Source: Spirochaetota bacterium (lineage in GTDB: Bacteria; Spirochaetota; Brachyspiria; Brachyspirales; JACRPF01). From it: 48,443 bases of DNA. The notes beneath the pieces were generated by a model, which did no database searches, was not told where the DNA came from, and saw only the letters and a program-made list of their open reading frames with translations. The position numbers and the translations under genes were made by a program. How positions within the stretch are numbered: position 1 is the first letter of the stretch; each line of letters opens with the position of its first letter. This document shows positions 8,757 to 37,419 of the stretch, in pieces. Location: contig JBBTBY010000013.1 of assembly GCA_038043445.1 (NCBI GenBank), positions 1 to 48,443 on the forward strand, in the 5' to 3' direction.

Positions 8757-9466
8757 AGGCGCGCAACGTACGCACGATATTCCTCCGCGAGCTCCGCTCG
8801 TTCTACATATCGCCGCTCTATTACATACTCGGCTTCATCTATCTCGCGCTCACGGGCTTTTTCTTCACCATGGACATTCACTTCGTCAAGCTCGCGGTGA
8901 TGGAGAACTCGCTCTACAATATCGGTTTCTTCTCGATACTCTTCCTTTCCATTCTCTGCATCAAGCTCGTTTCCGAGGAGAAATCGTCGGGAACGTTCGA
9001 GCTCGTGATGACCTCTCCCATACAGTCGTTCGAATATGTGCTCGGCAAATATCTTTCGGTGCTCACCGTCTACGCATCGTTCCTTATCATAACGCTCGCC
9101 TACCCGGTATTCCTCATGATATTCGGCACGCCCGATGTCGGCGTCATACTCTCAGGCTATCTCGGGCTATTCCTTCTCGGCGCGGCCGTGCTCGGGCTCG
9201 GCCTTGTGGCCACATCGCTCACGCGTTCGCAGCTTGTCGCCGCCATTCTCGGCGTCTCGCTCGCACTCCTCGCGTATGTGATCAACTGGATAGCGGATAT
9301 GTTCTACTCCGCCAAGCGCGTGCTCGAGGCCATATCGATAACCACGCAGTTCGCCAATTTCACCAAGGGCCTCATCGACGTGTCGAACATCCTCTTCTTC
9401 ATTACATGGATAACCGTCTGTCTCGCCGTCTCCACGCTCATCGTTGAATCGTACAAATGGCGATAG
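8753..9466 (+). CDS. ABC-2 type permease (GldF-like)
   Basis: Six hydrophobic segments in 237 aa form the membrane half of the exporter whose ATPase is encoded just upstream with a four-base overlap. The opening (IFLRELRSFYISPLYYI) and the cytoplasmic loop EEKSSGTFELVMTSPI are typical of GldF/YhaP-like permeases. In many bacteria a GldG-like partner follows. Here the next gene is uppP, six bases away, so the usual third component is missing from this operon. Confidence 0.9.
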   Translation: MKARNVRTIFLRELRSFYISPLYYILGFIYLALTGFFFTMDIHFVKLAVMENSLYNIGFFSILFLSILCIKLVSEEKSSGTFELVMTSPIQSFEYVLGKYLSVLTVYASFLIITLAYPVFLMIFGTPDVGVILSGYLGLFLLGAAVLGLGLVATSLTRSQLVAAILGVSLALLAYVINWIADMFYSAKRVLEAISITTQFANFTKGLIDVSNILFFITWITVCLAVSTLIVESYKWR

Positions 9467-9472
9467 CGCGCG

Positions 9473-10318
9473 ATGCTTGAAGCCTTCATACTCGGCGCCG
9501 TACAGGGTGTAACGGAATTCCTTCCCGTGTCAAGCTCGACGCATCTGCGATTTCTGCATCACTTCTTCGGCTTCGATCTTTCCATGAACACCGTCGCCTT
9601 CGATATCACGCTCCATTGCGCGACATTGCTTGCCGTTGTCATCGTGTTCCGAGAGGAGATACGCACGGTGATCACAGGCTTCATGAAAGCACTCACCCCG
9701 TCATCGATAAAGGACATACGGCGCACCTGGCGTAAGAACGAGCAATTGCGCTTCGTCATCTACGTTCTCACTGCAACGGCGTTGACCTTCCTCGTTTATT
9801 TTGCGATGAAAATGCTCGGCGTTCCGCTCAAAGACACCGTATCATCAGATGCAGAGGCGGAACGCGGCATGCTCATGACGTTCTCGGCGGGGCTCATCGT
9901 CACCGGTTTCATACTCTTCGCATCGCTTCTGGCGAAACGCTATGGACAGCATCGCAAGCCGACCGTCATCATTGCCATTATCGTCGGCATCGCGCAGGGG
10001 CTCGCCCTCTTTCCCGGCATTTCACGCTCAGGGATTACGATAACCGCAGCGCTTCTCTCGGGGATATCGCCGGCAGCCGCAGGAAGCCTTTCTTTCCTGC
10101 TCTCTTTACCCGCGGTCGCCGGAGCGGCGCTCCTTGACGTGAAGAACATCGCCGCTATGGAACTCATCCCGCTTGCCGTCGGATTTATAAGCGCGTTCGT
10201 ATTCGGTTATTGTGCGCTGAGGCTCCTCATCGCCATGATACGCCGCGGGAGTTTTTTCGTGTTCGGTTTCTACTGCATTGCGGCAGGCGTTTCGATGATC
10301 GTCTATCTGATGCGGTAG
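9473..10318 (+). CDS. uppP: Undecaprenyl-diphosphatase UppP (BacA)
   Basis: Membrane phosphatase that recycles undecaprenyl pyrophosphate to the monophosphate carrier used for peptidoglycan and surface polysaccharides; it also gives bacitracin tolerance. Both catalytic-region signatures are present: GVTEFLPVSSSTHL near residue 12 and PGISRSGITI near residue 180. About eight hydrophobic segments and 281 aa are normal. It is six bases downstream of the ABC permease, so co-transcription with the exporter is likely and hints at an envelope substrate for it (inference). Confidence 0.95.
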   Translation: MLEAFILGAVQGVTEFLPVSSSTHLRFLHHFFGFDLSMNTVAFDITLHCATLLAVVIVFREEIRTVITGFMKALTPSSIKDIRRTWRKNEQLRFVIYVLTATALTFLVYFAMKMLGVPLKDTVSSDAEAERGMLMTFSAGLIVTGFILFASLLAKRYGQHRKPTVIIAIIVGIAQGLALFPGISRSGITITAALLSGISPAAAGSLSFLLSLPAVAGAALLDVKNIAAMELIPLAVGFISAFVFGYCALRLLIAMIRRGSFFVFGFYCIAAGVSMIVYLMR

Positions 10319-27457: not shown

Positions 27458-30400
27458 ATGAATCGCAACAAAATTTTCGCGTCGATCACCACATTGCTGC
27501 TTTTCGCCACCACTGCTGTCGCAACCGACATAGTGTCGAATGGTGGTTTCGAAAAGGCGACGTGGGAAACGACAGATTGGTTCTCAAATGTGGGAGCGAC
27601 GATTTCGGGTTCTCGCATGGGCCGGTCGAGCTTGTTTTCAAAGAACGGCGGTTTTTCATATTGGATATCAAATGCCGTACAACCGGCAGGGACGATGCAT
27701 TTTCAGTCCAGAACTAACGCTGCCTCCGCAGCAACAGGATACAGTTTTTCAGCGTGGATATTGCGTAAGAACTACGGCGGAGGGGGTCAATTGCAGGGAA
27801 ATTTGCGGGTCAATTGGCTCACGGCTGCTGATGGGGCCAATGGAAGCGCCACATTGTCGCTTACCGGTCTGGCAGATGGTGTGTGGTCGAATGCCAGTAA
27901 TGTGATCACAAGTCCGGCAGGCACGGCGAAGTTTTATATCACCGCTGAACCGCGACAAGTCCCCGCCAACGGAGGAAAGGTAATATTTTTTGACGACATA
28001 ACCTTGATCAACGGCATACCGCCGGTTGTAACATTGCTCAGTCCGCTCAATAATACCACGGGCGTTCTGGTGACGGCGAATATCGTTCTGACTTTCAATG
28101 TGGCTGTCGCGAAGGGCTCGGGCTATATTTATATTCGAAAATATATGGATGACAGTATTGTGCAGACAATTGATATAAACGATGCAACTCCGGGCGTTAT
28201 TACCATGGGCGCGACGAGCGTTACCATCAATCTTCCCGCCGATCTTGCATCAGCAACACAATACTATGTTACGGTTGACAGCGGGGCTATAAAAGACACA
28301 CAGGCCGTGCCGATCGATTTTCCCGGTATATCATCAAAAACAACGTGGAGATTTGTAACTACGGATGCTGTCCCTCCAACAGTGACCGCGCTCAGTCCTA
28401 CGAACGGTTCATTAAATATCATGCCGAGCAGGAGCCTTGTCCTCACCTTCGATGAAAGTGTAGCGAAGGGGGCGGGGAGCATCCTTATCAGGAATTATGT
28501 CGACGATACGACGATTCTCACGATACCCGTGACTTCCCCGGAGGTCACCGTATCGAACAATATCGTTACCATAAATCCGACGAATGATATTCTTGAAACA
28601 AATGTATATGTGAACATCCCTGCCGGCACTATACGAGACCTTTCAGCGAACAACCATGCTGGTTTCCTGGTGAAAACGGATTGGAACTTTCAGGTCTTCG
28701 ACGGTGTTGCACCGACAGTAACAGCGATAACTCCGCTCAACGGGGCGCTCGGCGTTGCCACCGCCAGCACATTGCAATTGGTTTTTACTGAGAATGTACA
28801 AAAAGGTACGGGGAATATTTACATAAAGAATTCTTTAGATGACAGCATCACCCATACCATCGATGTGACAAGCGGCAGCGTTGTAATCGCCAACACGGTT
28901 GTGACGATAACGCCGCCGGGCGGACTGCTCGTGGATAAGCAATACTATGTTACGATAGACGCTACCGCGATAAAGGACTTTGCCGCTGTCGCCAATTTTT
29001 ATTCAGGTATAAGCGGTAAGAACAGCTGGATGTTCCTGACGACCGGCGCGACCGCCCCTGGGATACTGTTACTCAGCCCTGCGGATGAGGCGGCCGGTGT
29101 ATCGTCCGAGGCGAACCTTGTGATCGCATTCGATAAGAACATATGCCTGTATCCCGGTGATGACGCAAGCGGAACCTATCGGTATTTTTCGATCTATCAG
29201 ACGGCAGGCCCGACGCTGCTTCAGCAGATCAAGTCCAGTGATGTTGTTATTTCAAATAATGCCATTTATATCAACCCTCCCAGCAACCTTCCCGAGGGAG
29301 CGATATATGTGAACATTGATTCCGGAGCGATAAGCAATCTCAGTCAAATGGCGTACGGGGGTATATTGAATAATACGACGTGGAATTTTACCGTCGCAGA
29401 TACAACACCACCGACCATTTTCATACTGAATCCGCCGAATAATTCGGCAGGTTTCAACCTGACTGCAGATATTGAAATAACATTTGATGAGGCTATACAA
29501 AAGGGAACGGGGAATATATACATCAAGAAATATTCCGATGACAGCATGGCACAGACAATCGATGTTGCCACTGCAGCGGTGACGATAGCAGGGAATAAGG
29601 CAACCATCAATCCACCGAGCGATCTTATCGCCGGTGTGCGCTACTATGTGACCATGGACGCAGGCGCTATAAAAGATACCGCGACAACGCAGAATAATTA
29701 CGGCGGGATAAGCGCAAAAACCGTGTGGTCATTCGTCGCTGCGGACACGACCGCGCCGACGGCGACCGCATTCTACCCATTGGACGGTGCGAGTGCCGTC
29801 GTGCCGAGCACGCCGCTCGCTATTTCCTTCAGTGAGGATATTCAAAAAGGATCGGGCTTTATCCAGATAAAACGCTCGAACGACAATGTGCTTCTCTTGG
29901 CGATCGATGTGCAGAGCACGAACGTGCTCGTAGCATCGAATGTCGTGCTCATCACGCATCCATTGTCCATCCCCGATACGAACGTGTATGTGAATATTGC
30001 CTCCGGCGTGATACAGGACCTTTCGGCGAATGAATATGCAGGGGTTACCGGTACTACGGATTGGGATTTCAGCATTCTTGATAATTTTGCTCCGGTGGTA
30101 ACTGCGTATACGCCGACGAACACACAGATCGGCGTTTCTGTCGGTGAATTTCTCCGGCTTACATTCGATGAAATAGTGCAAAAAGGGGCCGGCAATATCT
30201 ATATCAAGAATTTCGCGACCGATGCGGTGACACATACCATCGATGTGACGACGGCGAATGTCGCCATCGCCCTTAACAGGGTGACGATAACGCCGCCTGG
30301 CGGACTTGCGACGAACATGAAGTATTATGTGACCATCGATGCCGGCGCGATAAAGGATATGGCGAACGCGGTCAATAATTACGGGGGTATAAGCTCGAAG

Positions 30401-31027
30401 AGCGTGTGGTCGTTCGAAACACCCGATACATTGCCTCCGACCGTGCAGAGTCTTTCACCGACCAACGGCGATCGCTACGCGGGCATGTCGTCGAATCTCA
30501 TCATGACGTTCGTTGAGCCGATACTCTGGGCCGGCGGGAGTGATACGATCACGATAAAGCGTTTCATTGATAATACAACACTTTACACGTTCACGAACAA
30601 TGATCCGTCGGTTGTTATCAGCGGGAACGTCATCAGCATTGATCCGTCCGCCGAGCTGCCGAGGGAGAATCTATATGTCCTTATCGGGCCGACACTTCTC
30701 GTGGACAGAAGCGGCAACCTGTATGACGGCATAGCTGCAAATAACACATGGCAATTCACCGTGGGGGAGGCGATCTCCACCAACCGCGGAGTGCCATATA
30801 ACACCATAACTCGAAGGACGGATGCATCGGTGCGCTTCAATAATCTTGTTGCCGGCGACGAGATATGGATATACTCGGCGAGCGGATACAAACTCGCCAC
30901 TGTGCCGTATGTGGCCGCAACGACGTACTGGACGATACCGGCGAATTTAAGCTCGGGCGTCTATATCGTGAAGATACGCAACAGCGGTGCCTTTGTCGGT
31001 TCGTATAAAATAGTGATACTGCGGTAA
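27458..31027 (+). CDS. Large surface protein: carbohydrate-binding-like domain, eight Ig-like (Big_5/SbsA-type) domains, sorting-like C-terminus
   Basis: An 1189-aa exported protein. Signal peptide residues 1-22. Residues about 24-185 look like a galactose-binding/CBM-type beta-sandwich (SNGGFEKATWETTDW, FFDDITLINGI). Eight Ig-like domains start near residues 188, 305, 420, 532, 651, 765, 877 and 993, each opening like PPTVTALSPTNG. They alternate between type A (YYVTIDAGAIKD) and type B (VYVNI), giving four A-B pairs. Residues about 1107-1189 resemble a type IX/FlgD-like C-terminal domain (EIWIYSASGYKLATV, SSGVYIVKIRNSG, YKIVILR). The gene is more AT-rich than its surroundings. Its neighbour, 21 bases on, is PorV-like. 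Confidence 0.85.
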   Translation: MNRNKIFASITTLLLFATTAVATDIVSNGGFEKATWETTDWFSNVGATISGSRMGRSSLFSKNGGFSYWISNAVQPAGTMHFQSRTNAASAATGYSFSAWILRKNYGGGGQLQGNLRVNWLTAADGANGSATLSLTGLADGVWSNASNVITSPAGTAKFYITAEPRQVPANGGKVIFFDDITLINGIPPVVTLLSPLNNTTGVLVTANIVLTFNVAVAKGSGYIYIRKYMDDSIVQTIDINDATPGVITMGATSVTINLPADLASATQYYVTVDSGAIKDTQAVPIDFPGISSKTTWRFVTTDAVPPTVTALSPTNGSLNIMPSRSLVLTFDESVAKGAGSILIRNYVDDTTILTIPVTSPEVTVSNNIVTINPTNDILETNVYVNIPAGTIRDLSANNHAGFLVKTDWNFQVFDGVAPTVTAITPLNGALGVATASTLQLVFTENVQKGTGNIYIKNSLDDSITHTIDVTSGSVVIANTVVTITPPGGLLVDKQYYVTIDATAIKDFAAVANFYSGISGKNSWMFLTTGATAPGILLLSPADEAAGVSSEANLVIAFDKNICLYPGDDASGTYRYFSIYQTAGPTLLQQIKSSDVVISNNAIYINPPSNLPEGAIYVNIDSGAISNLSQMAYGGILNNTTWNFTVADTTPPTIFILNPPNNSAGFNLTADIEITFDEAIQKGTGNIYIKKYSDDSMAQTIDVATAAVTIAGNKATINPPSDLIAGVRYYVTMDAGAIKDTATTQNNYGGISAKTVWSFVAADTTAPTATAFYPLDGASAVVPSTPLAISFSEDIQKGSGFIQIKRSNDNVLLLAIDVQSTNVLVASNVVLITHPLSIPDTNVYVNIASGVIQDLSANEYAGVTGTTDWDFSILDNFAPVVTAYTPTNTQIGVSVGEFLRLTFDEIVQKGAGNIYIKNFATDAVTHTIDVTTANVAIALNRVTITPPGGLATNMKYYVTIDAGAIKDMANAVNNYGGISSKSVWSFETPDTLPPTVQSLSPTNGDRYAGMSSNLIMTFVEPILWAGGSDTITIKRFIDNTTLYTFTNNDPSVVISGNVISIDPSAELPRENLYVLIGPTLLVDRSGNLYDGIAANNTWQFTVGEAISTNRGVPYNTITRRTDASVRFNNLVAGDEIWIYSASGYKLATVPYVAATTYWTIPANLSSGVYIVKIRNSGAFVGSYKIVILR

Positions 31028-32343: not shown

Positions 32344-34041
32344 CTACCGCTTTTGACCGCCAATAATCCCTATCACCGCCTGCACGCACGGCTTGAACAA
32401 GAGCGATCCGATCTTACAGAGAATAGTCTCCGGTATCCGCCTGCCGAAGTATATTCTCATTGATAAAAGCATGCGTTTGAGCATGCTCCCGGAGAGCGGC
32501 TCCCGGTCGAACATCTCACTCCCTTCGGGGACGTAGAAGCCCAAGGCTTGCGATACAAGACAGTAGAGGAATCGCGCGAGATCGCGTTTCAGCTCCGGCA
32601 TGCGCGCGCTTTCAAAACGCGATGGATGGAGGAGATACGGGTTCTTCACGAACATGGCCGCTATGGTACGCAGATCGCCGCCCGTGAGGTCGTTCGCAAT
32701 GCGCCGCTGTATTATCTCCGAGGGGAGCTCCGTGCATCTTTTCGCGAACTCATGGAAGTATTCATCGCGGCGAATGGCGTAGTGAAAGCCCTGAAAGAAT
32801 TTATTGAGCGCCATCTTCTTCTCGCATGACCTGAGCCACGCGATATCATACTCACGGAGCATGCGTACGGATGTGTCACCGGCGGCAAGCGCCTTCTCGA
32901 TGACGGGGGCTGCGAGGGAGGCTTCCTCGAGCGAGGGTGCGAAACCGAAGCCGGTATCCGGTATCTGCCGTGTGGCGCTCGCACCGATGAAGAGGATATT
33001 GTCGTAGGCGGATGCCTCGCGGAAATCCGTCATCGGTATGATGCCTTTTCGTTCGCGCTCGAAGTTTCCCGAAAGTTTCCTGATATTGAGCCAGCTCGAC
33101 AGGTAGCGTTCCATCTCCTCCGACGGCGGCTCACCGGCGGGATCTCCCGGCGTCGTTTCGGTGAAGACCATGACGCCCGCGCCTGCCGACTTCGGACCGA
33201 AAACGTCCACCCAGAAATTGGCGCTCGTCACCGTGGGCATGGCAAGGTCCCAGATTATCTCCGGCTGCGGCCGTTTCAATCCGCTGAACTCGTACATGAG
33301 GCATTTGAGCACCGTGCAGGAACGCTGGCGGTGGAACGACCGTACGAGGTTCGAATGATATCCCCCCGCATCGACTATCATCCGTGCACGGAACGCCATG
33401 TTGTCGCGCTCTTTTTCGATATTATCGAGCTCGTCCATGGCATTGACGGTGACCAGGGGGTCATGCTTCTGGAAGAAGGCGTCATCCACGTTCAGGCGCG
33501 ATGTCGAGCGTGGAAAGCTTTTACGAGCAACGCTATAACGCAGGGTGCGGTAGTCGTTAACGACGGTCTTGCCGATGACGAGGCCATCGCGCGCGAAGGC
33601 GGTCAGTTCGCAGTTCTCGACCACCGTGCAGTACGCATCATCGATGCGCGATGCGAGGAGCGAAAGCACTTTCCGCTGGTCCATGAGGCAGTAGTCGATA
33701 TGCGTGGGCGCGTTCAGGCCGAAGTAATTGCGGAAGTAGGTGTCGCGATGGCGCATCTGTACCGCGGCGGCAAGGCCGTATCGCTCGACGATGGGGTACG
33801 GCAATGCGAACACCTTGTCCGTCTCGAGGAAGCGTCCCCGTTCCAAAAGGACGGAGCGGATCTTACGCTGCGAGAGCTCATGCGCCATCGCAAGTCCCGC
33901 GGGGCCGGCACCAGCGATGATGACATCGAACGGGGTGCGTGCGATCTCGGCAGCGCGAGCAGCGTCCGCCGGCACCGACACATTGTATACCGCGCGGCGG
34001 ACATGCGCCGCGGCGCGATGCATTCGTTGCGCCATTATCAT
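32344..34041 (-). CDS. FAD-dependent oxidoreductase (geranylgeranyl-reductase/lycopene-cyclase-like)
   Basis: A 565-aa flavoprotein. The FAD-binding GxGxxG motif is IIAGAGPAGLAMAHELS at about residue 40. A second FAD motif reads NILFIGASATRQIPDTGFGFAPSLEEA around residue 370. The long C-terminal part is helical. Families with this fold oxidise or reduce isoprenoid or polyketide substrates; the substrate here is unknown. The first ATG overlaps the kinase stop (ATGA); an ATG two codons later (34035) has better spacing to the GAGGAG site. Coupling to a histidine kinase gene is unusual. Confidence 0.82.
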   Translation of the reverse strand: MIMAQRMHRAAAHVRRAVYNVSVPADAARAAEIARTPFDVIIAGAGPAGLAMAHELSQRKIRSVLLERGRFLETDKVFALPYPIVERYGLAAAVQMRHRDTYFRNYFGLNAPTHIDYCLMDQRKVLSLLASRIDDAYCTVVENCELTAFARDGLVIGKTVVNDYRTLRYSVARKSFPRSTSRLNVDDAFFQKHDPLVTVNAMDELDNIEKERDNMAFRARMIVDAGGYHSNLVRSFHRQRSCTVLKCLMYEFSGLKRPQPEIIWDLAMPTVTSANFWVDVFGPKSAGAGVMVFTETTPGDPAGEPPSEEMERYLSSWLNIRKLSGNFERERKGIIPMTDFREASAYDNILFIGASATRQIPDTGFGFAPSLEEASLAAPVIEKALAAGDTSVRMLREYDIAWLRSCEKKMALNKFFQGFHYAIRRDEYFHEFAKRCTELPSEIIQRRIANDLTGGDLRTIAAMFVKNPYLLHPSRFESARMPELKRDLARFLYCLVSQALGFYVPEGSEMFDREPLSGSMLKRMLLSMRIYFGRRIPETILCKIGSLLFKPCVQAVIGIIGGQKR

Positions 34042-35339
34042 TTCTCCTCAGGCGTGAGCGGGAGCCGTATCATGAACGTTGTCCGATCAAGCGGCGTGCT
34101 TGCAACGGTCACATCGCCGCCGAGCGTGTTCACGATATAGTCGTGTACGAAGTGAAGGCCCAGGCCCAGCCCTTCTTTTTTTGTGGAGAACACGGTGAAT
34201 ATTCTCTTGATATTATCGGGGGATATTCCCGGGCCGTTGTCGTTGATGACTATCACGGCCGTGTCCGCCGTATGCGCTACCGAGACGCCGATGCGTTTTT
34301 CCGTGACCTGCGATGCATTGAGGCTCTGCACCGCATTGGTGATGATATTGAGGAATACGGAGAGGAGCCGGTATTTCGATGTGACGACGGGTATCACCCC
34401 CCCCTCAAGTCCCGAGCAGTCGAACGTTATCTGCGCGGTCTTGCTCCTGCTCAAGAGCACGAAGTCGACGGCCTCGCGCACGGTGCTCCGTACATCGATG
34501 CGTTCCTCGCGCTGCGGATCGAGACGGATATACGAAAGGAACTGATTGATGATCTTCTCGATATCGTCAATGCTCTTCCCGATGAGCGGGTAGTATCTGC
34601 CTGTTTCCGGCGTATTCGCATGCATGCGCACGCCCTCAAGCGCCATGACGATGGTATGGAGCATGTTCTTGAGATCATGGAGCATGACGGAGAATATCTC
34701 ACCGCTCACGATGAATTTCATCGCGCCGATGAGCTTCTCGTTGAGCGAGCGGTTCTCATTGAGCTGCGCGGTGATGGTGTCGATGAGCATGCCGTAGTAG
34801 TACGAGATGAAAAGATGGAATGTGAGTATCGTGAACACCTTGAGGAAGATGATGGGCACGCTGAAATTCCCGAAGCGAAGCGCCGCGAACACATCCCCCG
34901 CCGCCAGAACGACGAGGAAAAACGACGTTATGAGGACGGGGCCTGCTTTCCGCATCGCGAGGTTCGGGAGCAAGCGCCAGAAGAAGAACATCCCCTGCAG
35001 CGTCACGAGGAGTACGAGGAATATCGGGGAGAACGTGATCGAGAATTCTATGCGTGTCGCAACATCGAGGGCGGTGAGACTTATCACATCGAGGATGCCG
35101 AAGAATATGACAAGACCCGACTCGTATCCGCGGACGCGGCGAATGTGGAAGATGATGTCCGGTATGATGACGATAAAAGCTACCGCGAACGACACCGCCA
35201 TATAGAACGCGAACAGCGACCGGTACTGCGGCAGTATGAAGCCGACCACGACAAGCCCTGCATTGCCGATGACGGCAAGGAGATAGCGAAGGAGTATGTA
35301 CTGCCGCGGCCTGAACCAGGGATACAGTGCCTCAGACAT
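34038..35339 (-). CDS. Membrane sensor histidine kinase (canonical H-box)
   Basis: A 433-aa kinase with six hydrophobic segments in residues 1-180 as sensor, then a transmitter. The phospho-acceptor is His221 in MLHDLKNMLH. The N box reads NIITNAVQSL, the G1 box DNGPGIS, the F box FTVFSTKKE and the G2 box GLGLGLHFV, so all ATP-site motifs are present. No response regulator is adjacent, so it is an orphan. It overlaps the upstream membrane-protein gene by eight bases and the FAD gene by four bases. It is a close paralogue of the 36006-37301 protein. Confidence 0.92.
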   Translation of the reverse strand: MSEALYPWFRPRQYILLRYLLAVIGNAGLVVVGFILPQYRSLFAFYMAVSFAVAFIVIIPDIIFHIRRVRGYESGLVIFFGILDVISLTALDVATRIEFSITFSPIFLVLLVTLQGMFFFWRLLPNLAMRKAGPVLITSFFLVVLAAGDVFAALRFGNFSVPIIFLKVFTILTFHLFISYYYGMLIDTITAQLNENRSLNEKLIGAMKFIVSGEIFSVMLHDLKNMLHTIVMALEGVRMHANTPETGRYYPLIGKSIDDIEKIINQFLSYIRLDPQREERIDVRSTVREAVDFVLLSRSKTAQITFDCSGLEGGVIPVVTSKYRLLSVFLNIITNAVQSLNASQVTEKRIGVSVAHTADTAVIVINDNGPGISPDNIKRIFTVFSTKKEGLGLGLHFVHDYIVNTLGGDVTVASTPLDRTTFMIRLPLTPEEK

Positions 35340-35913
35340 GGAAGAGCCATGCGGCGGTACGCAGTACGGCGAACACGACGATGCCCCAGAACCAGCCGTA
35401 GCCGAGCGACACAGGGACGGGTATCTTCCACGGCGTCATGGCCTTGCCGAATATTTTGTAGAAGGAATTGGTATACTTGAAATAATGGATGGCGTGAAAG
35501 AGCGCTTCGATGATATTCCCGATGAGGAAGGTGACGAGCACGGACGGGAACACGTAGTAGATGACCGAGGGGAGGCCTGCGAGCGGAACGAAGGTGAAAC
35601 GGAGGATATCCGTCTCAAGCCAGTGCGTTACGGCGAAACAGAAGGACATGAGACCCGACCAGGCGAGCGGTAATGAGAACGAAAGGTCGCGCTTGACGAA
35701 CGGGATGCGCAGCATGAGAAAATCGTATTCCCAGAGCCTGTCGGTGAATATCTCAAAGCACATGCCGATGACGAAGAGCAGCGCGGCGAAGAAGATGAAA
35801 AGCTTCCATTCATGATAGTGGTTGAGCAGGAAGAAGGCGCCGACAAGGCCGCCCAAGCCGATGATGCCGATGACACAGAGCTCTTTGATGACCGCGATGG
35901 TTTTCCGTTTCAT
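35332..35913 (-). CDS. Integral membrane protein of unknown function in the kinase operon
   Basis: A 193-aa hydrophobic protein with about five membrane segments (ELCVIGIIGLGGLVGAFFLL, LFIFFAALLFVIGMC and others). I placed the start at 35913, preceded by GGGGGA and a perfect TTGACA promoter; an in-frame ATG upstream lies beyond the promoter. It is not homologous by eye to the sensor parts of the kinases. Eight-base overlap with the kinase gene suggests the pair works together, perhaps as sensor or transport partner (inference). Confidence 0.82.
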   Translation of the reverse strand: MKRKTIAVIKELCVIGIIGLGGLVGAFFLLNHYHEWKLFIFFAALLFVIGMCFEIFTDRLWEYDFLMLRIPFVKRDLSFSLPLAWSGLMSFCFAVTHWLETDILRFTFVPLAGLPSVIYYVFPSVLVTFLIGNIIEALFHAIHYFKYTNSFYKIFGKAMTPWKIPVPVSLGYGWFWGIVVFAVLRTAAWLFHV

Positions 35914-35942: not shown

Positions 35943-35970
35943 ATAGTACCGTATGAAGTACGCTTGTCAA
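35943..35970 (-). promoter_or_regulatory. Promoter of membrane protein - kinase - FAD oxidoreductase operon
   Basis: Minus strand TTGACA, a 16-base spacer and TACTAT. A start near 35936 gives a leader of about 23 bases to the ATG at 35913. Confidence 0.75.
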
Positions 35971-36005: not shown

Positions 36006-37301
36006 TCATTTCCCCACGTGCGGGATACGGACGGTGAACACGGTGCGTTCGTTGGGAACGCTTTCCGCCGTGACCGTGCCGCCGAGCGTGCCCACGATGT
36101 ACTCATGGACGAAATACAGGCCAAGCCCGGTCTTCTTCTTCGAATAGAGCGAGAACATGTCCGTGATGTCCTCGGCGCTGATGCCGGGGCCATTATCCTC
36201 GACAGTGACCTCGATGCACTCGCCGGCAGCGACCGATACGCGTACGCGTTTTTCCGCGGAAGACTGCATGGCCGGCGTGTCAATGGCATTGGTGATGAGG
36301 TTGAGGAACACCGAGAGGAGGCGGTACTTTGATGCGGTGAGGTATATCGGGTCGCCCTCATCGATACCGGATGTTACGAACTCGATGAGCGCCGTTCTTT
36401 TCCGGCTGATGCGGATGAACGCGAGCGCTTCCCGTGTGATCTCCCGCACATCGACGGTCTCCACGAACTGCGGGTCAAGCTTGATGTATGAGAGGAACTG
36501 ATCGACGATGGTCTCTGTATCTGTTACGCTTTGCCCGATGATGGGGTAGAAGCGTTCACCCTCCGCCGGCTGCGCCGCATGCGCGCGTATGCTGTTCAGC
36601 GAGGTGACTATCGTGTGCATCATGCTCTTAACGTCGTTGAGCATGACGGAAAATATCTCGCCGCTCACGATGAATTTCATCGAGCCGATGAGCCGTTCAT
36701 TGAGACGGGTGTTCTCCTCAAGGCGTTCGGCGATGTATGAGAGGAGCAGGCTGTAGAGCCGGGTGACGAAGGCATGTGCGGAGATTATTATCAGAATCTT
36801 GACGAGGAAGAACACGATATTGGAATGAGCGTACCGGAAATAGAGCACGGCATCCGTGGCGATCATGGTCGCAAGGAAATAGACGGTTATCCACAACGCG
36901 TTCGGCAGGATGCGAAAAGCCGGGGTGATGGAACGATAGAAATATGCCCCCTGTATGGTCACGATGGGGATGAGGAATATCGGCGAGAATTGTATCTGGA
37001 AATAGACACGGGTGATGGCATCGAGCACGAGGAGATAGATGATATCGAGCAAGAGGAAATGCAGGATAATATCGCGATTACAGTCCTTCCTGCGGAAAAG
37101 GTGTAAGCCGGCGTCGACCACGGCAATAATGCCCGTCTCTACCACGGCGGCGATAAAATACAGGAAGAGAATATCCCGATACTGCGGAAAAACGAACATG
37201 GCCGCAGCAAGCGCACAATTGCTGACAGCGGAGATGGAATATCGCAGTGTGACGAAATAGCGCGAGCCGAACACTGCGGGGTAGGGATAGGGGTCGTGCA
37301 T
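36006..37301 (-). CDS. Membrane histidine-kinase-like protein lacking the phospho-acceptor His
   Basis: A 431-aa paralogue of the neighbouring kinase, with the same six-segment sensor and near-identical linker (SMKFIVSGEIFSVML). Where the neighbour has His221 in MLHDLKN, this protein has Asn222 in MLNDVKS. The ATP-binding motifs remain: NLITNAID, DNGPGIS and GLGLYFVHEY. It may therefore bind ATP but not autophosphorylate on the usual His; a His five residues on (SMMHTIV) is conserved in both and is not the usual acceptor. It has its own promoter with a palindromic spacer. Pseudokinase or allosteric partner is an inference. Confidence 0.9.
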   Translation of the reverse strand: MHDPYPYPAVFGSRYFVTLRYSISAVSNCALAAAMFVFPQYRDILFLYFIAAVVETGIIAVVDAGLHLFRRKDCNRDIILHFLLLDIIYLLVLDAITRVYFQIQFSPIFLIPIVTIQGAYFYRSITPAFRILPNALWITVYFLATMIATDAVLYFRYAHSNIVFFLVKILIIISAHAFVTRLYSLLLSYIAERLEENTRLNERLIGSMKFIVSGEIFSVMLNDVKSMMHTIVTSLNSIRAHAAQPAEGERFYPIIGQSVTDTETIVDQFLSYIKLDPQFVETVDVREITREALAFIRISRKRTALIEFVTSGIDEGDPIYLTASKYRLLSVFLNLITNAIDTPAMQSSAEKRVRVSVAAGECIEVTVEDNGPGISAEDITDMFSLYSKKKTGLGLYFVHEYIVGTLGGTVTAESVPNERTVFTVRIPHVGK

Positions 37302-37321: not shown

Positions 37322-37349
37322 ATGATACAGCACCGGGGCGTGCTGTCAA
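37322..37349 (-). promoter_or_regulatory. Promoter of the kinase-like gene with a palindromic spacer
   Basis: Minus strand TTGACA, a 16-base spacer and TATCAT. The spacer contains an inverted repeat ACAGCAC-N6-GTGCTGT (37327-37346) that touches both boxes, a classic position for a repressor site. Confidence 0.7.
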
Positions 37350-37391
37350 GAATGTTCTTGGCGGAAGGAACGCCGTGTTCGATGCACTTCC

Positions 37392-37419
37392 TTGACTTTG
37401 CATTGTGTCAGGGTATAAT
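37392..37419 (+). promoter_or_regulatory. Promoter of the purS-purQ-nadB operon
   Basis: TTGACT, a 16-base spacer and a perfect TATAAT at 37414-37419, 27 bases before the purS ATG. It is divergent from the kinase-like promoter, with about 40 bases between. Confidence 0.8.

Follow-up and report, generated by a model that had tools for sequence, protein, structure and literature searches.

The membrane protein RocA of Streptococcus pyogenes interacts with the canonical kinase CovS, whose phosphatase activity it represses; like the protein described here, HK-N, RocA is kinase-like, with six predicted TM helices, a DHp domain and a CA-like domain, and has no need of a phospho-histidine (PMC7028121, PMC7380576). 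RocA has a dispensable histidine and a degraded CA domain, whereas HK-N has an asparagine at the acceptor position and a mostly intact CA domain. Also in S. pyogenes, FasB and FasC, two kinase-like proteins that are encoded together, as are HK-N and its paralogue HK-H, reportedly associate as a heterodimer and divide the work between them (PMC12675982). Both retain a candidate histidine and neither was seen to homodimerise, whereas HK-H appears fully able to act on its own. In Caulobacter, DivL carries a residue other than histidine (Tyr550) at the acceptor position and keeps the kinase fold, as does HK-N; it has no kinase or phosphatase activity, senses DivK~P and regulates another kinase (PMC4211667). 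It differs from HK-N in having PAS domains and in acting on a kinase that is not its twin, CckA, whereas HK-N has an asparagine, a six-TM sensor and a close paralogue as its neighbour. Mixed dimers are also formed by the paralogous kinases ChrS and HrrS, and a pseudokinase variant of ChrS alters signalling (PMC9491836).

By analogy, the best reading of HK-N is that it would work like RocA, FasBC or DivL. It is probably a functional pseudo-histidine kinase beside a canonical paralogue, and thus a new example of a kind of protein that is already known. Among the kinase pairs studied by experiment, few natural ones have, to our knowledge, a member without an acceptor. NtrB (NRII) belongs to the same broad HisKA type as HK-N, and its laboratory mutant H139N, with the same His-to-Asn change, reportedly served to demonstrate phosphorylation in trans within mixed dimers; H139N is an engineered variant of a soluble protein, whereas the asparagine of HK-N is natural. 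With the terms employed, a literature search brought up no description of an acceptor changed naturally from His to Asn.

The window, by which we mean the whole analysed stretch of 48,443 nucleotides, is part of a draft genome of 5.1 Mb from an uncultured spirochaete of environmental origin. Both kinase genes lie where the initial annotation had placed them and are on the minus strand: HK-N at 36006–37301 (431 amino acids) and HK-H at 34038–35339 (433 amino acids), the latter a canonical kinase with acceptor His221 and a phosphatase-type asparagine at +4. Their description as close paralogues was borne out by an end-to-end alignment with 44% identity over 433 columns (E=1e-124). As neighbours they are one gene apart and not directly side by side, since the gene of a membrane protein, P0003, lies between them. 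In HK-N a membrane sensor region (about residues 1–195) is followed by DHp and then by HATPase_c, and HK-H is laid out likewise, with a sensor of about 195 residues. The AF2 model of HK-N predicts six TM helices in the sensor region and, with low confidence, agrees with a six-helix membrane region and a DHp-CA fold; its mean pLDDT of 58.9 makes it usable as an outline only. In a Foldseek search the DHp-CA part fell with HK853, ZraS and LvrB as well as with DivL. With HMMER, Pfam HATPase_c was present in HK-N (1.7e-20, 73.9 bits), in HK-H (76.2 bits) and in the related kinase of the sister genus (genome G159). Pfam HisKA was matched by HK-H (E=3e-7) and by the sister-genus kinase (2e-9), and HMMER gave no HisKA match in HK-N.

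The H-box readings MLNDVKS for HK-N and MLHDLKN for HK-H could be reproduced. The codon AAC at 36636–36638 (minus strand) encodes Asn222 of HK-N, and HMMER alignment to the solved kinases ZraS and ThkA placed this residue exactly opposite their acceptor histidines, as had been claimed. The corresponding codon of HK-H, CAT at 34677–34679 (minus strand), encodes His221, and the sister-genus kinase also has histidine there. HATPase_c proteins were detected at 35 places in the host genome, 30 of which were retrieved, and every one of the HisKA type was read. Histidine is kept in all 26 other readable HisKA kinases, with HK-N as the single exception (the other three retrieved proteins are two CheA-like and one gyrase B-like), which argues that the asparagine is not there by chance. 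The aspartate at +1 is retained. It is strongly supported by the sequence that HK-N does not autophosphorylate at the canonical position. The initial annotation had proposed ATP sensing in the absence of phosphotransfer; the loss of canonical autophosphorylation stands well, whereas ATP sensing is weakened by an altered G2 box and lid.

The acceptor is not the only residue of the DHp helix that has changed. At +2 leucine is replaced by valine, and at +4 HK-N has serine (DxxS) where HK-H and the sister-genus kinase have asparagine (DxxN), so that the E/DxxT/N phosphatase motif is absent. In CrdS the equivalent of the +4 asparagine, N375, is required for phosphatase and dispensable for kinase activity, with threonine as a partial substitute; serine was not among the substitutions quoted (PMC3510030). 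The asparagine-dependent phosphatase step has probably been lost in HK-N, which would then have weak or no phosphatase activity. Counted at the alpha-1 columns where HK-H and the sister-genus kinase are identical, HK-N-specific changes occur at 0, +2, +4, +11, +14, +15 and +18, and on a helix with 100 degrees per residue all except +2 fall within 60 degrees of the acceptor. In permutations this clustering on the acceptor face had p = 0.021 or 0.009, depending on the stretch chosen, which are modest values from few positions; with the upstream coil included p was 0.06, and without position 0 it was 0.045 or 0.024. The dimer-core face of the helix is largely free of substitutions. Between −13 and +20, private changes number two in HK-H and none in the sister-genus kinase. 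Positions +11 and +15 have the offsets which we take to be those of A271 and T275 from His260 in HK853, and these two residues are altered in the rewired HK853 interface, according to the titles of the structure entries. The ancestral docking face for a response regulator has thus probably been lost or changed in HK-N. The coiled coil and alpha-1 are nevertheless the best-conserved part of the protein, with 69–73% identity to both His-type kinases as compared to 30–34% in the sensor.

Autophosphorylation on another residue would have an obvious candidate in His229, which lies at +7, two turns along the helix. This histidine is present in all three kinases, and its equal presence in both His-type kinases means that it is no compensating change; since the +4 and docking positions have changed too, we consider such a rerouted reaction very improbable.

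In the ATP-binding domain the N, G1 and G2 boxes had all been described as intact. This holds for the N box (N..NA) and for G1 (DNGPGI), but not for G2, which lacks two residues and the first glycine: HK-N reads KKKT--GLGL where HK-H and the sister-genus kinase read KKEGLGLGL. The first glycine of GxGxG is gone and the GLGL core is retained, and no shorter ATP lid was seen. These changes may abolish ATP binding by HK-N. However, the first glycine is likewise missing from a CreC-like, His-bearing kinase encoded in the host genome (KSTGLGL), so its absence alone is no proof that ATP binding was lost, and the lid in the AF2 model is too uncertain for judging nucleotide binding. A split kinase in which the ATP domain of HK-N phosphorylates His221 of HK-H in trans within a mixed dimer would fit the intact N and G1 boxes, a HATPase_c score of 73.9 bits that is close to the 76.2 of HK-H, the retained aspartate at +1 and the model proposed for FasB and FasC. 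It would, however, have to operate with the shortened G2 box and lid, and no split is needed because HK-H has an intact CA domain of its own, which makes donation of the CA domain quite unlikely in our estimate.

On the minus strand the gene order is HK-N, P0003, HK-H and a FAD-dependent enzyme. P0003 (35332–35913, minus strand) is likely a protein of 193 amino acids that starts at the ATG at 35913, after a Shine-Dalgarno-like run GGGGGA; it had no match in Pfam or NCBIfam. P0006, its orthologue in the sister genus, shares 48% identity with it and has a start that matches the ATG at 35913; by this comparison the ORF start at 36009 probably lies too far upstream. A start at 35913 leaves a gap of 92 nucleotides behind HK-N. 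This later start of P0003, taken from the sister-genus orthologue, also led us to abandon a reading as one operon in which every junction is an ATGA overlap. The FAD-dependent enzyme, a member of the lycopene cyclase/geranylgeranyl reductase superfamily (32344–34041, minus strand), has a start that overlaps the end of HK-H and an orthologue with 66% identity in the corresponding position of the sister genus; its synteny with a sensor kinase is thus seen in both genera.

Two promoter-like sites, both consensus matches only, were found on the minus strand. One, TTGACA-N16-TATCAT at 37322–37349, agrees with the consensus at 11 of 12 positions and lies about 20 nucleotides before the ATG of HK-N; the other, TTGACA-N16-TACTAT at 35943–35970 (10 of 12), lies in the 92-nucleotide gap and could drive P0003, HK-H and the FAD enzyme separately. 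They are the only matches in the window to the pattern with at most one mismatch (expected number 0.42), and two matches occurred in 8 of 100 shuffles. No terminator-like site is listed in the gap behind HK-N. Given these sites and a gap in which no terminator-like site is listed, HK-N is perhaps expressed separately, with read-through being possible. The region 37322–37419 of the window contains two divergent consensus-like promoters about 43 bp apart, of which TTGACA-N16-TATCAT points towards HK-N and TTGACT-N16-TATAAT towards genes that by eye resemble purS and purQ.

Orthologues of HK-N were sought in 296 genomes of the phylum, in the whole family (two genomes) and in 100 relatives, and the sole relative that turned up was the kinase of the sister genus. 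A contig scan with P0001 gave no relative, and one with an alignment of the three sequences gave just two hits, the kinase of the sister genus and an unrelated kinase. HK-N is thus known from one genome. This kinase family turned up in just one other genome, where a single kinase, of the His type, occupies the same slot; by synteny it is the counterpart of HK-H, so its histidine neither refutes nor confirms the asparagine as a feature of HK-N orthologues. The order there is P0007 (a membrane protein), P0006 (the equivalent of P0003), the His kinase, the FAD enzyme and a receiver-HD-GYP protein, which is encoded immediately after the kinase operon. In the host genome its orthologue, 67% identical, is an orphan response regulator (G000:C7:35322-36410, locus L020:7305-8417) on a different contig from the kinases, with no kinase gene adjoining. 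Judged from the order in the sister genus, the receiver-HD-GYP protein is most likely the cognate regulator and output of HK-H, displaced in the host genome. Ahead of the kinase operon the sister genus has two small membrane-protein ORFs (L013:8865-9455 and 9455-9658, minus strand). In the larger one, P0007, the motifs IPIEN and GEE are, by eye, reminiscent of membrane lycopene cyclase domains; P0007 gave no match in Pfam or NCBIfam, and no relative of it was found in the host genome. The possibility that P0007 is a relic of HK-N or a relative of P0003 was rejected, as there is no similarity.

In a tree of the DHp-CA parts of the three kinases, the branch of HK-N has a length of 0.65 changes per column versus 0.34 and 0.30 for the other two; the tree is a trichotomy, with an AU p of about 0.5 for both alternative groupings. 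The duplication likely occurred before or near the split of the genera. The codon-position differences of HK-N (third 0.53–0.55, first 0.40–0.41, second 0.30–0.33) are close to those that separate the two His kinases from each other, with GC3 at 0.74 in HK-N and 0.76 in HK-H. A frame of 431 codons has remained unbroken, and the N and G1 boxes have been retained, across a divergence comparable to the genus split, which argues against a sequencing error or a fresh mutation. An error in the sequence or assembly would require one base change only (CAC to AAC) in what is a single draft genome. Several linked changes in the same gene speak against it: the replacement of leucine by valine at +2 and of asparagine by serine at +4 and the deletion in G2 fit a real change of constraint, and we hold an artefact to be hardly conceivable. 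A duplicate that is decaying and without function might be recognized by the longer branch (0.65) and by the changes at catalytic positions and in G2, and the sister genus has none. On the other side are the 431-codon frame, intact at 44% identity, a coding-like substitution pattern and GC3, the conservation of the dimer helix and of the N and G1 boxes, and the presence of a promoter-like site, and we regard decay as improbable. HK-N has the fold of a kinase, is without the acceptor histidine and is encoded by an intact gene, which is what distinguishes a pseudo-histidine kinase.

A heterodimer of HK-N and HK-H, inferred from the genomic neighbourhood, the conservation of the helix, the spared dimer-core face and the precedents, is the best reading. 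HK-N would have arisen by an old duplication of the neighbouring HK-H, and since the dimer core is kept, the two proteins would most likely pair. In such a dimer only the HK-H subunit would provide the histidine and a phosphatase-competent face, and the presence of HK-N would change the balance between the kinase and phosphatase activities of HK-H towards the orphan receiver-HD-GYP protein, which, by its synteny in the sister genus, may then affect c-di-GMP turnover. The promoter-like site of its own would allow the dose of HK-N to be set apart from that of HK-H. For the proposal in full, a membrane pseudokinase that is an old duplicate of HK-H, pairs with it and shifts its balance towards the HD-GYP regulator, we consider the chances about even. 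Against pairing it may be argued that another gene separates the two kinases and that each may have its own transcript, and HK-N could act as a homodimer alone. A homodimer repurposed in the manner of DivL, serving as sensor or adaptor for another regulator or kinase independently of HK-H, would agree with the changed specificity-setting positions +11 and +15 of alpha-1, with a sensor region unlike that of HK-H (30% identity) and with the separate promoter-like site; DivL itself binds DivK~P in spite of having no kinase or phosphatase activity (PMC4211667). Yet the dimer-core face and the coil are nearly identical to those of HK-H, the gene is still beside that of HK-H and no candidate partner is encoded nearby, so this possibility appears rather doubtful. 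Returning to the pairing of HK-N with HK-H, a more far-reaching version would be a natural asymmetric dimer in which HK-N, which would bring neither acceptor histidine nor phosphatase residue and a changed docking face for the regulator, and would be set by its own promoter and sensor, tunes the ratio of kinase to phosphatase activity in a c-di-GMP pathway linked to an enzyme of the isoprenoid or carotenoid type; we advance this tentatively and hold it to be somewhat unlikely. With losses that map to one face of a helix, a preserved dimer core and a mostly preserved ATP site, the HK-N/HK-H pair offers a clean test case for the change of a duplicated kinase into a regulatory subunit, and it is also suited to asking if mixed dimers shift the kinase/phosphatase balance.

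Elsewhere in the window, at 27458–31027, a probably secreted protein of 1189 amino acids is encoded, with repeated segments that carry YYVTID/VYVNI motifs and by eye appear Ig-like, and with a sorting-like domain at the C-terminus.
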